A stretch of DNA of 64,000 nucleotides from an uncultured Desulfobulbaceae bacterium (GTDB taxonomy: Bacteria > Desulfobacterota > Desulfobulbia > Desulfobulbales > Desulfobulbaceae): the NCBI GenBank assembly GCA_947259225.1, contig CAMYLK010000004.1, positions 1 to 64,000 on the forward strand, read 5' to 3'. The translations under genes and the position numbers were made by a program. Under the pieces are notes generated by a model. It was not told where the DNA came from. It searched no databases and saw only the letters and a program-made list of their open reading frames with translations. Of the stretch, positions 58,964-64,000 are shown piece after piece; position 1 is the stretch's first letter; each line of letters opens with the position of its first letter.

Positions 58964-59353
58964 TTACTTCATCGCGATAAGCCCACGTTTGCCAAGTTCT
59001 TTGAAAAAGGTGGTAACTGAGACTTCTGTTTCCCGGCGGGTCAACTGATGGGTGGTTTGGAATTCATCAATTATTTTTCTGACACTCTGTTCACCGTCAA
59101 TCATTCGCCAGACGGATTCACCGAGAGGGTCGAGTTGGAGTGTCCGGTTAATAAGAGAGCTTTCTTGCCTGGTTATTTTTTTCAGTACACCCTGAAACCA
59201 GGGCCGTACCTGCACCTGATAGACAAGTCGAAGCTCCCCTTTTTTGTTTGCCTCTTCTTTTACCTGGGGGTTTCTTACAGGAACACAGTCAAGTGCATGA
59301 TGTCGCGAGTGCGTTGCACCAGCCTGGGTGGTATTTTTAGTTTTTTTAGTCAC
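58964..59353 (-). CDS. PqqD-like (peptide-binding RRE-type) protein
   Basis: The 129-residue protein's C-terminal 75 residues look like a PqqD-type winged-helix domain: LDPLGESVWRMIDGEQSVRKIIDEF and a final FFKELGKRGLI. Such domains hold precursor peptides for modifying enzymes. GTG 59353 is the only start after an in-frame stop. It is the last gene of the ABC exporter operon. No radical SAM or other peptide modifier is visible in the window. Confidence 0.7.
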   Translation of the reverse strand: MTKKTKNTTQAGATHSRHHALDCVPVRNPQVKEEANKKGELRLVYQVQVRPWFQGVLKKITRQESSLINRTLQLDPLGESVWRMIDGEQSVRKIIDEFQTTHQLTRRETEVSVTTFFKELGKRGLIAMK

Positions 59354-59376: not shown

Positions 59377-60252
59377 TTAGGGTATGTCGAGGGCGGTAAA
59401 GTTGGAAACGATATGGTCCAGGCGTTCCTGCTGTACGGCTTTTTTCCCGCTTCCCTTCACTCCGAGGATGACATTGTTGCCAGGTATATGCCACAGTCGC
59501 AACCAGATCCAGCCCGTTTTCCTGCCCAGTATAACTGCCAAGCGATCAAGTCCCGAAGCAGAATATTTCCAGGTTGCCCAGGTATCGGCACTTTCAGTAC
59601 AGAGTGCATTTTCCGACAGGGAAGAACCGAATTCTTCAAGACTCTTGCCGTTCAGAAGTGCGGCAGCCGGTTTGAACCTGTAGAGGGTGATAGATGAATC
59701 ATCCAGCTCAAATGAGAGGGTATAGCGGCCGGCCAGGAACTCAGGTGATTTCAGGCTGGCCCTGGCAGGGAGAAGCGCCCTGATATCATACATCGCCCAG
59801 ATTTTGTCCTGCATTTCATTATGGTCTGAAAAGGATTGCAATACATTTTGCAGAACGTGTGAATCCTCAAGGTGTGTCCCGTAAAATCTAAGTATAGTAG
59901 CCAGCTTACAGGATGGGCAGAATAACAGTAAGCCCAGGCTTGAAAGCTGATCATGGACGCATTTAAATCCGGATAGCGAGTAATTTTTGATAGAGTCCCG
60001 CAGTGCTGGCGGTATGTCCCAGGATGTGACAACCGTACCAGCTGCCTGAAGGGCGTCCCGGATTTTATTCAGGGTACGATCAGGCGAAAAGCTGCCGTTG
60101 ATCTGCTTCCACTTTATCTCAAAGGCAGGCTGTCCATCCTGTTCGAAAAAAAGATAGGAGTTACGGACAGCAGTTGCCTGCCAGGCGGCCGGCAATTGAA
60201 AGGTCACCCCGTCCCATCCGATCTCTTGCCAATGTTCCGGAGAATCACCCAT
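59377..60252 (-). CDS. Unknown protein of the ABC exporter operon
   Basis: The 291-residue protein has no signal peptide or membrane helix. It is rich in aromatic residues, with WDGVTFQLPAAWQA at the start, a CPSC pair near 118 and two halves that may be repeats of an alpha/beta unit. I do not recognise it. Its ATG lies 3 bp after the stop of the secreted-protein gene, so it is translated from the same message. Confidence 0.65.
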   Translation of the reverse strand: MGDSPEHWQEIGWDGVTFQLPAAWQATAVRNSYLFFEQDGQPAFEIKWKQINGSFSPDRTLNKIRDALQAAGTVVTSWDIPPALRDSIKNYSLSGFKCVHDQLSSLGLLLFCPSCKLATILRFYGTHLEDSHVLQNVLQSFSDHNEMQDKIWAMYDIRALLPARASLKSPEFLAGRYTLSFELDDSSITLYRFKPAAALLNGKSLEEFGSSLSENALCTESADTWATWKYSASGLDRLAVILGRKTGWIWLRLWHIPGNNVILGVKGSGKKAVQQERLDHIVSNFTALDIP

Positions 60253-60255
60253 AGT

Positions 60256-60840
60256 TCATCGGGGGATCATGTTTTCCCAGTTTTCTTCCTGCATACTGAC
60301 CGGGCATGCCACTCTTGTTTTTTCACATTGTTTATTAAAGCACAACCGCTCAGCCTTTATTCGGTCGGGCATGGTGAGTTTGACCATATTGCCGATATTT
60401 TGTTCGATGTCCTTCAGATTATGCTGGAGACTGAGGGTGACGTAATTGTTGTCCTTGTCAGTGAAGCGCCATTTCCATTCCAGAACAATGCCAAAGGAAT
60501 CACCTGTAAATTCATCTGGTTTACCGAATTTTTTCTTGTAGCGCTTGAGCAGTTGATTGTAGAATTTCCGACTTGAATCCCTGTACTTCATTTTGATCCT
60601 GACAATTTCACCAGGCCGGTCGCAGACTCCGTAGGATATTGTCCCTTTGCGAAACCCTCCTATATCCTCTACGATTACTTCTTTGAGAAAATTACGGTAC
60701 GTGATGAAATCATATTCTTCAATGGATGATCCCAGCTTGAAGCCATTAATTTCGCGAGGTACGTTTTCCCCGGCAAACGATAAAGATGCAGTAAGCAAAA
60801 GAAACCCGCAGAGTATCCATGCTAAACGATACACGACCAT
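60256..60840 (-). CDS. Secreted (periplasmic) protein of the ABC exporter operon
   Basis: From ATG 60840, behind GAGGAG, this is a 194-residue product with a clear signal peptide (MVVYRLAWILCGFLLLTAS, cleavage after SFA). The mature part has INGFKLGSSIEEYDFITYRNF and a lysine-rich KYKKKFGKPDEFTGDSFGIVLEWKW segment, and ends with several cysteines. The family is not recognised. Upstream in-frame codons to 60939 overlap the preceding gene and are rejected. Confidence 0.7.
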   Translation of the reverse strand: MVVYRLAWILCGFLLLTASLSFAGENVPREINGFKLGSSIEEYDFITYRNFLKEVIVEDIGGFRKGTISYGVCDRPGEIVRIKMKYRDSSRKFYNQLLKRYKKKFGKPDEFTGDSFGIVLEWKWRFTDKDNNYVTLSLQHNLKDIEQNIGNMVKLTMPDRIKAERLCFNKQCEKTRVACPVSMQEENWENMIPR

Positions 60841-60844
60841 TGTC

Positions 60845-61402
60845 TCACTCCTCATTGTCCTTCTGTTGAGAATCAAAAATACATTCCTGCCACGCATCTT
60901 CCTTGATATTATGCAAAAGGTAATGCGTCTGGTCAACAAAGCGTTGAATGCGCAACTGAACTATATGAGAAACAGTGTCAGGCAACCGCTCAGGATATTT
61001 TTCCATGACTTTATGAAAGGCTTCTCTTGTAATGGTAAGCAGCTTGACGTCAGTCATGGCTCTTGCAGAGAAAAACCAGTCGAACTGAGCCAGCAGGGCA
61101 AGCTCTCCAAAATAGTTAAATCCTTCCGCAGAAAGCATTTGCAAATGAAACTCTCTACCGTGATGGTCTTCACAGATAGCAACCTTGCCTGACATGATAA
61201 GAAACATGCGGTCGCTGGGTTCTCCCTGAACCACAAGCGGTTCGTTTTCCAAATAGTTCTCTCTTTGAGAAAGATAGGCATAGAGACGAATCGTTTCAAG
61301 TGGAGTATTGGCAAAAAAGGGAAGCTGCCTCAAAAATGCCAGGTTCTCGTCAAGAGTACTTTGACCGGATTCCTCAACATGTTTATTTTTCGACGAGTTC
61401 AT
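60845..61402 (-). CDS. Cyclic-nucleotide-binding-domain protein
   Basis: The 185-residue protein carries a single cNMP-binding-like beta roll (about 35-140): VVQGEPSDRMFLIMSGKVAI, then FGELALLAQFDWFFSARAMTDVKLLTI, the phosphate-binding-cassette region in which the usual Arg/Ser are only partly kept. No DNA-binding domain follows, so it is not a CRP-type regulator. Its start overlaps the ABC gene end by 20 bp, which suggests a regulatory partner of the exporter. Confidence 0.85.
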   Translation of the reverse strand: MNSSKNKHVEESGQSTLDENLAFLRQLPFFANTPLETIRLYAYLSQRENYLENEPLVVQGEPSDRMFLIMSGKVAICEDHHGREFHLQMLSAEGFNYFGELALLAQFDWFFSARAMTDVKLLTITREAFHKVMEKYPERLPDTVSHIVQLRIQRFVDQTHYLLHNIKEDAWQECIFDSQQKDNEE

Positions 61403-64000
61403 AAAACGCTCCTTTACTGGCCATCAATTCTTCATAGGATCCCTGTTCAATAATGGAACCTGCCTTCATGACTATTATCCTGTCATAAGAAGGTGTCATG
61501 TCCAGGCGGTGAATAACCGCAATAATCGTTTTTGTTCCTTTATATCTTGTGTCAAGCAGTTCCTGGATTCGCGCCTGGGATCTATTGTCAAGGCTCGCGG
61601 TTGCTTCGTCCATTATGAGAACGGGAGTGTCTTTCAGCAGGGATCTGGCTATGGCCACTTTCTGTTTCTGGCCACCTGAGAGCCGGTCGCCTTTTGAGCC
61701 CACCTCAAAATCAAGACCGATGTCCATGACTTCATCCAGGAGTCCTTCACGCTGGAATGTCTTCATGGCAACAAGGTACAGTCGTTCAACGTCGGGTGTA
61801 TCAGTAATAGTACCGCCGAAAAGTATATTGTCTTTCAGGCTGTGTTTATACAGGTACTCAGTCGGACAGTAAGGTATAAAGTGTTTTTCTTCCTCAATCA
61901 TTGGAAGGGCTATTAATGCACCGCTCTCTCTGAGCTGGGTAACCGCATCAAAGCACGCATCGATATCAATTCCCATTACATCCTTGAGGAACGTGTGACG
62001 GGCTTCAACGATCCTGTCGGCCAGCTCTTTCGGCATATCGACAATGGTGTGCTTACCGTCTATATATCGCAGGGCAAGAAGGAGAAAAGGGGTCTTTTCA
62101 TTTTTACTCTGCGGCTTCCTCTCGCCAAGGTTCTCAAGAAGCTTTTGATGCGTTTCAAGTTCATCAGGTTCCATGGGACTACCATGGAAAAAGAATTCAT
62201 CGTCACCAAAATCCTTGAGAAGGCTTACGGTTCCTTTCGAAATGCTTAAGCCAAGTTCAATGAGGTCATCCTCAAGACCATGAGAGGTAAGGTAGTTCCG
62301 GAAAATCTGGTTCTCCGGCAGCATATCGGTATCAAACTCTCCCGTTAAACTGTCACCGAAAATGATGTTATCCCGAATGGAACAGTAGTGAAGAAAATGA
62401 TGAGGATTGTAGAATTCAACAACTGCTGAAAACTGGTCGCCAAGCTCTCCCTGGATAATACGGCGCATATGAAGGAATTTATCTTTAAGGAGCATTACTC
62501 TGTCTTTCGGCAGGATCATGTTGAAACCGAAACGGAGGATATCTTCTTCCAGCCCCACATCGTTTACGACCTGAAACAGCTTTTCTCTCCCGGGCAGGTC
62601 TTCATCACCATCAACGGATGCTTTCACCGCATAGAGGAGATTTTCCCGGATAGTTCCGGTAAATATAAACGGATGCTGGGCAATCATGGTTATGTTCTTG
62701 CTTATGTCAGTCTTGGAAAGAGTATTGATATCCTTGCCATCCACGAGAACAGAACCCTTACTGACATTGTAGAGCTGGGCAATAAGGAGTGCGAGCGTGG
62801 ATTTTCCTGATCCTGAAAAACCGACCAGCGCAACCTGTTCGTTCGGTTTTATTTTTGCTGTAATCCGGTCGAGTAGTTTTACCCCTGTACCAACGGAAAA
62901 ACTTGCGTCCCGAAGTTCAATATTTCCCTCAAGTTTGTATGGCTCCCTTCCCTCTGGCAAAATTGGGTGTTCAGGGTCCAGATCGAAAATTTGCATTATC
63001 TGCTTATACCGGACAGAAGCGTCCTGATACGACTGATAGTATTCCAACATTTCTTTCCAGGGATCGTATACTTTTTGATAGGCTGATAGAAAGGCAACCA
63101 GAGCACCAAGGGTAAATTCGCCGTTTATTGCCAGGTATCCGCCTACAAGGAAAAGAAAAAAGGGGCCGACAGACTGAAACATATTGTTCGCAAACTTGAT
63201 GCCGTATTTTACAATGAAAAGTTTTTTCAGGATGCCGTACAGTTTATTCACGTATGAAGACATCCTTTGTTCCTCAACCCTGTAACTGGCATTGGCATGG
63301 ACCTCATGGATTCCGGAAATGGCCTCATTGACAACATTCCCCATGGCCCTGGAATTTTTTATGCGCTTTTTGTTGAGTCGGTTATAGCGGCGCTGCAGCA
63401 TGGGGATGACAATAAGTTCGAACGGATACACACTGATACCAAGTATGGCCAACAATGGACTCAAGCTGAACATATAGCCGAGAAAGACCAGAAAACTAAG
63501 GATACTTGTTGCCGGGATAGCCAGTGCCCCGCCAAGAAAAAAACCAATGGCATTCAGTTCTGCCGTCATGGCCGAGATGACGGTGCCGGGCTGCATTTTT
63601 CGATAAAACTGAAGGGGAAGCTGAAGGATGTGATGGTACAGTTCGGTTCGCATCTCGACCAGTATTTTCTGGCCGATAATGGTCTGCATGGTGTTGGTGA
63701 CAAACTTTAGGATTCCAGCGAGGGTTACCGCACCGATATAGAGCCCGCAATAAAGAAAGAGGAGTTTTTCATCCCTGAGATGGATGGCTTCGTTGATTAT
63801 CCTTTTCTGCATCTCCAAAGGAAAAACCTTGAAAAAAAGACTTGCTAGGATGATAAGCAGCAACAGGAACTGCAGCGGACGATGCCGCCTGAGAATCCAG
63901 TAAAATAATGGGCGCTGGGTTATGCGCAAGAAGACCTCCAAGGGTTCGGTGATGAGGATTACAAACAGGTGTATCTTGTCGGGTGGTTCATTGCAATATT
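61383..64000 (-). CDS. ABC exporter half-transporter with repeat insertion (partial at window edge)
   Basis: At least 852 residues are present; exporters of this kind usually have about 580-620. Numbering from TTG 63941, residues 20-320 hold the six-helix exporter membrane domain. The ATPase follows: Walker A GFSGSGKST (374-382), Q-loop MIAQHPF (419-425), signature LSGGQ (754-758), Walker B VLIMDEATASLD (774-785) and switch His 811. Between Q-loop and signature about 270 residues are inserted, containing degenerate repeats of the TIRENLLYA segment (430-438, 521-529, 701-709). The frame stays open to the window end without ATG, so the N-terminus probably lies beyond 64000. The TTG has no ribosome site. 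The substrate is unknown. Confidence 0.88.
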   Translation of the reverse strand, partial: YCNEPPDKIHLFVILITEPLEVFLRITQRPLFYWILRRHRPLQFLLLLIILASLFFKVFPLEMQKRIINEAIHLRDEKLLFLYCGLYIGAVTLAGILKFVTNTMQTIIGQKILVEMRTELYHHILQLPLQFYRKMQPGTVISAMTAELNAIGFFLGGALAIPATSILSFLVFLGYMFSLSPLLAILGISVYPFELIVIPMLQRRYNRLNKKRIKNSRAMGNVVNEAISGIHEVHANASYRVEEQRMSSYVNKLYGILKKLFIVKYGIKFANNMFQSVGPFFLFLVGGYLAINGEFTLGALVAFLSAYQKVYDPWKEMLEYYQSYQDASVRYKQIMQIFDLDPEHPILPEGREPYKLEGNIELRDASFSVGTGVKLLDRITAKIKPNEQVALVGFSGSGKSTLALLIAQLYNVSKGSVLVDGKDINTLSKTDISKNITMIAQHPFIFTGTIRENLLYAVKASVDGDEDLPGREKLFQVVNDVGLEEDILRFGFNMILPKDRVMLLKDKFLHMRRIIQGELGDQFSAVVEFYNPHHFLHYCSIRDNIIFGDSLTGEFDTDMLPENQIFRNYLTSHGLEDDLIELGLSISKGTVSLLKDFGDDEFFFHGSPMEPDELETHQKLLENLGERKPQSKNEKTPFLLLALRYIDGKHTIVDMPKELADRIVEARHTFLKDVMGIDIDACFDAVTQLRESGALIALPMIEEEKHFIPYCPTEYLYKHSLKDNILFGGTITDTPDVERLYLVAMKTFQREGLLDEVMDIGLDFEVGSKGDRLSGGQKQKVAIARSLLKDTPVLIMDEATASLDNRSQARIQELLDTRYKGTKTIIAVIHRLDMTPSYDRIIVMKAGSIIEQGSYEELMASKGAFYELVEK

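Follow-up and report, generated by a model that had tools for sequence, protein, structure and literature searches.

The last gene of the window, the 64,000-nucleotide stretch at positions 1 to 64,000 of contig CAMYLK010000004.1 from an uncultured Desulfobulbaceae bacterium, encodes an MsbA-like type IV ATP-binding cassette (ABC) exporter with a long insert in its nucleotide-binding domain (NBD). The insert harbors two additional, homologous copies of the protein's own segment between Q-loop and signature motif. We read it as a docking and control domain for a sensor protein, whose gene comes next and overlaps that of the exporter, and put the probability of this reading at a little under one half (about 0.48).

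Counted from its first TTG, the exporter comprises 852 amino acids, and its open frame meets a stop only a few codons beyond the window edge. Both candidate TTG start codons are inside the window; since a GGAGG motif precedes the second one, located four codons into the frame at position 63929, translation probably starts there. Pfam recognizes a transmembrane domain (TMD; PF00664, ABC_membrane) with 112 bits and an NBD (PF00005, ABC_tran) with 97 bits, both above the cut-off, the latter match being divided into two stretches. The MsbA equivalog model TIGR02203 reaches 321.3 bits and thus stays below its cut-off of 602 bits. All catalytic motifs are intact: GFSGSGKST (residue 374), MIAQ (419–422), LSGGQ (754), LIMDE (775) and IHR (810). 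Because its motifs as well as its predicted fold (see below) are those of an ABC exporter, the protein is assigned to this class, with ATP-driven export as its putative activity.

Between the Q-loop glutamine (Gln422) and LSGGQ lie 331 residues, in agreement with the approximately 330 claimed in an earlier note on this DNA. The single normal exporter considered from the same genome has 55 residues at this place (n = 1), which gives an excess of about 280 in the window protein and makes the value of about 70, quoted in the note for normal exporters, a little high. Three versions of one motif had been described in this stretch, and all were found where they had been placed: TIRENLLYA at residue 430, SIRDNIIFG at 521 and SLKDNILFG at 701, marking the segments R1, R2 and R3. 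The helix pattern GLxxDxxxxG, said to follow each of them, is present behind the first two (GLEEDILRFG, 463; GLEDDLIELG, 555), but the third (GLLDEVMDIG, 733) has Glu in place of Asp. As claimed, only R3 runs into LSGGQ; the catalytic Gln occurs in R1 only.

The self-alignment that had been proposed as a check detects homology between the repeats, in single sequences for R1–R2 and R2–R3 and at the profile level for all pairs. In local alignment of single sequences, R1–R2 scores 78 and R2–R3 79, values reached by none of 2000 shuffles; the R1–R3 score of 36 is matched by 80/2000 shuffles and is not significant. Profile-profile comparison (99 sequences) yields E-values of 6.2e-10 for R1–R2, 1.2e-11 for R2–R3 and 1.5e-9 for R1–R3, compared to 0.03–0.77 when seven TMD windows are run against each repeat profile as a control. 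The helix in front of R2 is shared with R3: residues 636–690 match residues 441–528 (E = 1.4e-4) and 485–572 (E = 2.4e-4). The approximately 110 residues separating R2 from R3 are no repeat of the Q-loop-to-helical segment. Aligned with one normal exporter, R1 scores 46 (2/2000 shuffles as good), R3 45 (1/2000) and R2 35 (26/2000). By sequence homology the extra copies belong to the ABC Q-loop-to-signature segment. Since R1, with its catalytic Gln, is simply the segment that any exporter has, the idea of an insert built by repetition of the helical segment holds with two extra copies, not three. Among PDB sequences, a profile of the insert piece finds six matches at E ≤ 10, all of them MRP1, in which SLRENILFG of NBD1 is aligned to R2 (E = 0.16–0.25); this is a weak but independent hint that R2 may originate from an NBD segment. 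One parsimonious history would consist of two duplications of the segment, after which the first copy retained the Gln and the last remained in front of the signature.

A series of homologues with one, two or three repeats, which the note had suggested looking for, was not seen among 355 aligned rows. In these, the distance from Q-loop to signature is either 324–336 or 339–385 residues, with nothing intermediate (112 and 243 rows, respectively, from best-match lists). The rows are those of at least 780 amino acids among 367 proteins (12 were dropped, including the sensor protein P0123), comprise the queries, with the window protein present twice (P0001, P0002), and were drawn from the best 120 of 2123, of 872 and of 2492 matches; rarer forms may exist.

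AlphaFold2 (99 sequences) predicts the exporter with a local confidence (pLDDT) of 85 and a template-modelling score (pTM) of 0.81. Most ten-residue blocks of the insert reach at least 85, with a decrease to 59–74 at residues 661–690. With VIA-align, the ComA NBD can be superposed over its full 239 residues on residues 335–851 of the model at 1.4 Å. In the model the motor is therefore complete, with about 280 residues looped out of the predicted NBD, and the model as a whole displays the exporter fold. All three copies show a similar predicted order of strand, loop, short helix and helices, while the spacer behind R2 is predicted to be all-helical without core strands. Modelled alone, the piece comprising R2 and spacer (residues 475–694) is likewise confident (pLDDT 84, pTM 0.82). 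In three dimensions, the stacked helical subdomains that had been anticipated are hypothetical: the copies share a similar order of secondary structure, and the isolated R2 piece has no match in the PDB.

The gene of the proposed partner overlaps the end of the exporter gene by 20 nucleotides. Its product matches PF00027 with 62.8 bits (cut-off 27.5), and no DNA-binding domain was found in it by Pfam. Removal of duplicates left 55 distinct exporters, 50 of which have at least 400 nucleotides of downstream sequence. The sensor gene is adjacent in 44 and fused to the exporter gene in two of these 50 loci (46/50). In loci of the desulfobacterial type it is adjacent in 38/41, in those of the alphaproteobacterial type it is adjacent in 6/9 and fused to the C-terminus of the exporter in 2/9. 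Moreover, 38 of the best 120 of 2492 matches in a profile search are proteins of at least 1000 amino acids carrying PF00027, that is, fusions. Mainly because of the adjacency in two phyla and the fusions, exporter and sensor are considered to work together. The sensor protein is a candidate partner for the regulatory or docking surface suggested in the note, its docking being putative.

A further indication of a role of the insert comes from relatives with a degenerate ATPase. All six motifs are kept in 111/112 rows found with the window protein (query included), the remaining row being without an aligned H-loop His. In contrast, 0/119 rows of the Rhizobium search (query included) keep any of the six, and the signature is kept in 0/120 of the profile matches. 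Within this second, mostly alphaproteobacterial clade, all six motifs are found in 0/243 rows, the signature is gone in 243/243, and the Walker A, Walker B and H-loop residues are lost in most; the Walker A Lys is present in 112/112 rows of the intact set versus 44/243 of the degenerate set. Where degenerate matches carry a name at class level or lower, they are alphaproteobacteria, apart from one metagenome-assembled genome called Candidatus Acidoferrum. The automatic motif test applied to the tree described below can misread distant rows, since it scored two of three outgroup exporters as degenerate; outgroup rows were for this reason left out of the counts. Arg493, Asn525, Arg648 and Asn705 of the insert, and also Gly709, are identical in 355/355 rows and Asn434 in 353/355. 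After thinning to less than 80 percent identity (45 + 81 rows), all six residues stay at 90 percent or above in both groups. In a tree of 73 rows calculated from the TMD only, the degenerate set forms one clade (98/100, with a bootstrap that had not fully settled) requiring a single change, and a length of more than 1000 amino acids also appears as a single change. On this tree, the ATPase was lost once, in the degenerate clade.

Binding of cyclic nucleotides involves a phosphate-binding cassette with Glu and Arg, as in CAP. The sensor of the window has the Glu, and Trp at the Arg position; another sensor (locus L087) has both residues. The Arg is present in 6/6 separate and 40/40 fused alphaproteobacterial sensors. 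Genome G026, a desulfobacterial one, combines an intact exporter with a sensor that has the Glu as well as the Arg; on the tree it is placed closest to the degenerate clade, albeit with weak support (83/57). Its cluster consists of overlapping or near-abutting genes for exporter, sensor, histidine kinase, receiver and receiver-cyclase, then come PqqD-like, FtsX, MacB-like and large FtsX genes, an arrangement also seen around the window. Altogether, four sampled clusters, G026 and three plasmid clusters, pair a class III cyclase with an Arg-bearing sensor. The plasmid clusters, of Rhizobium johnstonii 3841 (where the cyclase scores 28 bits only) and two Phyllobacterium plasmids, have an annotated adenylate/guanylate cyclase at or near the cluster head and, being related, count as one observation. 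The search took in eight plasmid records, without that of L061, and four genomes; a cyclase near the ABC gene was found in 3/8 of the records and, among the genomes, in G026. A cyclase in G534, 7 kb away with unrelated genes between, was counted as chance. A cyclase beside the ABC gene was rejected as a general rule, the other sampled genomes and records, apart from G534, having no close one. The pattern would fit a cyclic-nucleotide origin of the sensor, with ligand binding lost in the lineage of the window.

On the preferred reading, the insert would adjoin both the helical subdomain and the coupling helices, where binding of the sensor protein could shift the helical subdomain or the Q-loop. 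The ligand state of the sensor would then gate ATP use or movement of the TMD. The ancestral ligand may have been a cyclic nucleotide supplied by the class III cyclase of the same cluster; as the phosphate-binding Arg is missing from the window's sensor, this ligand would have been lost in the window lineage. A further-reaching version, which we regard as a tentative possibility, is that the family became a cyclic-nucleotide-controlled membrane machine in which hydrolysis of ATP by the exporter itself was not needed. Insert and sensor would drive or gate the TMD, which would have allowed the ATPase to die once on the branch leading to the alphaproteobacteria, with the TMD and the key residues of the insert remaining unchanged, and the branch of the window would represent an earlier, ATP-driven and sensor-gated stage.

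Several observations weigh against insert and sensor acting together in this way. In the intact set the insert is the most variable part of the protein, with 1.66–1.87 bits over the stretch before R2, R2, the spacer and the stretch before R3, compared to 0.13 bits at Walker A. In the degenerate set, its mean variability (2.0–2.2 bits) is lower than at Walker A and H-loop (2.4–2.5) but higher than in the signature (1.78), Walker B region (1.51) and TMD (1.3). In addition, many rows were gathered by search words from the insert, which biases towards insert conservation, and the model of R2 and spacer has no fold match in the PDB. An adjacent or fused sensor gene is missing in three desulfobacterial loci (L012, L013 and L033), in which the gene normally following it is still there, and in Methylobacterium L060. 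As to the ligand, among the 38 desulfobacterial sensors with a residue at the Arg position, 24 have Trp, like that of the window, and 4 have Arg. In G000 and G088 no cyclase was found close to the ABC gene, nor was one in 5/8 of the alphaproteobacterial plasmid records, though the sensors checked there have the Arg. Since cyclase genes are common on these plasmids (eight and nine matches on two of them), even a near cyclase is weak evidence.

The four of 50 loci without an adjacent or fused sensor would be expected if the insert acted within the transporter alone, where the extra copies would cap the NBD dimer or coupling helices, or brace them, and tune ATPase coupling with no partner involved, the sensor serving a separate purpose. 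Homology of the repeats to the NBD segment which faces the coupling helices in known exporters points in the same direction, as does the presence of the insert in 355/355 rows, an argument that is partly circular given that many of them were found through it. However, adjacency in 44/50 and fusion in 2/50 loci across two phyla, together with 38 fusions among the 120 matches, argue for a shared task, and we judge a self-contained insert rather unlikely. That the insert is a decayed extra NBD from a tandem fusion, of which R2 would be the Q-loop and helical remnant, might be suggested by its profile matching in the PDB nothing but MRP1 NBD1, in an alignment which passes the signature and Walker B region. 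Yet comparison of the spacer with profiles of the Walker B half reveals no similarity (E = 0.54 and 0.16), which ruled out this origin as the principal explanation, and its all-helical prediction offers no core strands; we consider it improbable. The draft state of the genome (288 contigs) might suggest that the long spacing is an artefact of assembly or annotation, a notion refuted by the single open frame and by many relatives of similar length in other assemblies, including those of named isolates.

The family is widespread. A second copy in the same genome (C84) is 67 percent identical to the window protein, 20/297 genomes drawn from the phylum contain a match at E ≤ 1e-120, and 85/389 relatives, a set overlapping with the 297, match at 1e-100, the own genome being included in both counts. 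The 35 genome-contig loci are mostly named as Desulfobulbaceae, Desulfobulbus, Desulfocapsa, Desulfogranum or Deltaproteobacteria. Relatives with about 23–28 percent identity occur on plasmids of Rhizobium, Sinorhizobium, Phyllobacterium, Shinella, Methylobacterium, Ruegeria and Azospirillum, and the insert alone as query finds 122 and 263 plasmid records with two queries. The copy on pSymB of Sinorhizobium meliloti 1021 (L056, 7521–10272) is broken over two reading frames in the record. A second desulfobacterial subfamily (L084, L088, L089), about 41 percent identical, keeps its ATPase motifs intact and comes with a sensor gene of its own; a gene overlapping it in L091 resembles by eye a SpoIIE/RsbU-type phosphatase. 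No paper describing the exporter family was found in the open-access literature searched, where a family of this anatomy, set apart from known exporters by the insert, appears to be undescribed.

Features of the exporter and its sensor gene in the window (positions in the 64,000-nucleotide stretch)
Feature	Residues	Positions	Strand
MsbA-like ABC exporter, TMD plus NBD bearing the long insert; start probably at 63929		61383..63941	-
Transmembrane domain, PF00664	20-320	62982..63884	-
Walker A, GFSGSGKST	374-382	62796..62822	-
R1: own Q-loop (Gln422) and TIREN/helical segment	418-474	62520..62690	-
Helix before R2, invariant Arg493; resembles helix before R3	478-498	62448..62510	-
R2: extra copy, invariant Asn525	506-570	62232..62426	-
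Helical spacer, not a repeat	571-635	62037..62231	-
Helices before R3, invariant Arg648	636-684	61890..62036	-
R3: extra copy running into the real signature, invariant Asn705	685-745	61707..61889	-
LSGGQ signature, Walker B LIMDE and D-loop	754-785	61587..61682	-
Lone cyclic-nucleotide-binding-domain protein, 185 amino acids, PF00027; ATG with AAAGGAG upstream		60845..61402	-

The neighbours of the exporter gene are kinase, DUF6785 and FtsX genes in the lineage of the window, and an oligopeptide-type importer plus glycosyltransferases in rhizobia. Since they differ between the lineages, a shared substrate cannot be read from the context. Located upstream of the window end, a conserved gene run precedes the exporter in L044 (7021–16501) and in part in L010, L011, L013, L033 and L085. 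It encodes an ABC ATPase resembling LolD/MacB, a 1615-residue FtsX protein that weakly matches M28 peptidases, a 661-residue DUF6785/DUF6784 membrane protein, and a 652-residue protein without Pfam match that is 80–93 percent conserved where found. On the other side, two genes on the minus strand of the window (59377–60252 and 60256–60852), without a Pfam match over cut-off, are linked to the exporter; their counterparts form a divergent upstream block in some loci (e.g. L017, L019–L021). At the end of the cluster, a gene for a PqqD-like protein (58964–59353, minus strand; PF05402, 31.5 bits) is linked in many relatives. In G026, a radical SAM/SPASM gene adjoins its counterpart, a hint at peptide modification. 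In rhizobia and Azospirillum (L046, L047, L048, L058, L059, L061), the degenerate exporter is found beside an importer with an SBP_bac_5-type binding protein, in two gene orders; the binding protein was scanned in L046 and L058, and the dual-NBD ATPase in L058. No other exporter-type ABC gene is annotated alongside the degenerate exporters in the clusters examined.

An ABC motor communicates with its transmembrane domain through the helical segment that links Q-loop and signature, and this segment is usually short. A widespread family with this segment tripled, a ligand sensor gene beside it and one branch that lost the ATPase but retained the tripled part constitutes a natural experiment. It raises the question whether the coupling interface, rather than ATP, can gate the movement of an exporter, and suggests a little-examined second-messenger input to export.

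Among known systems, MsbA, Sav1866, TM287/288 and TmrAB share the type IV (ABCB/MsbA-like) class with the window protein, which differs from them by a Q-loop-to-signature distance some 280 residues longer and, compared to MsbA-like exporters, by a sensor gene alongside in most loci examined. The sensor itself shares PF00027 with CRP/FNR-type proteins; unlike these, it has no DNA-binding domain detected by Pfam and Trp instead of the phosphate-binding Arg. TAP and TM287/288 are exporters with one degenerate nucleotide site. The same applies to MsRv1273c/72c (PMC12038006), and loss of catalytic residues from an exporter-type NBD is common to such proteins and the degenerate relatives described here; exporters of that kind retain one active site in a heterodimer, whereas the present degenerate relatives are without signature in 243/243 rows. 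Coupling of an ABC exporter to a domain of the cyclic nucleotide monophosphate (cNMP) type is also seen in HetC of Nostoc, a peptidase-containing exporter with an N-terminal cyclic-nucleotide-binding domain (PMC10986499). The cNMP-type domain of HetC is reported to be required in vivo, and its N-terminal part to bind ppGpp, while cyclic AMP gave no protection (PMC10986499). HetC differs in having a C39 peptidase domain, Pfam having detected no peptidase family in the window protein, and in its N-terminal sensor, which in the family presented here is separate or C-terminal and is joined by a repeat insert in the NBD.

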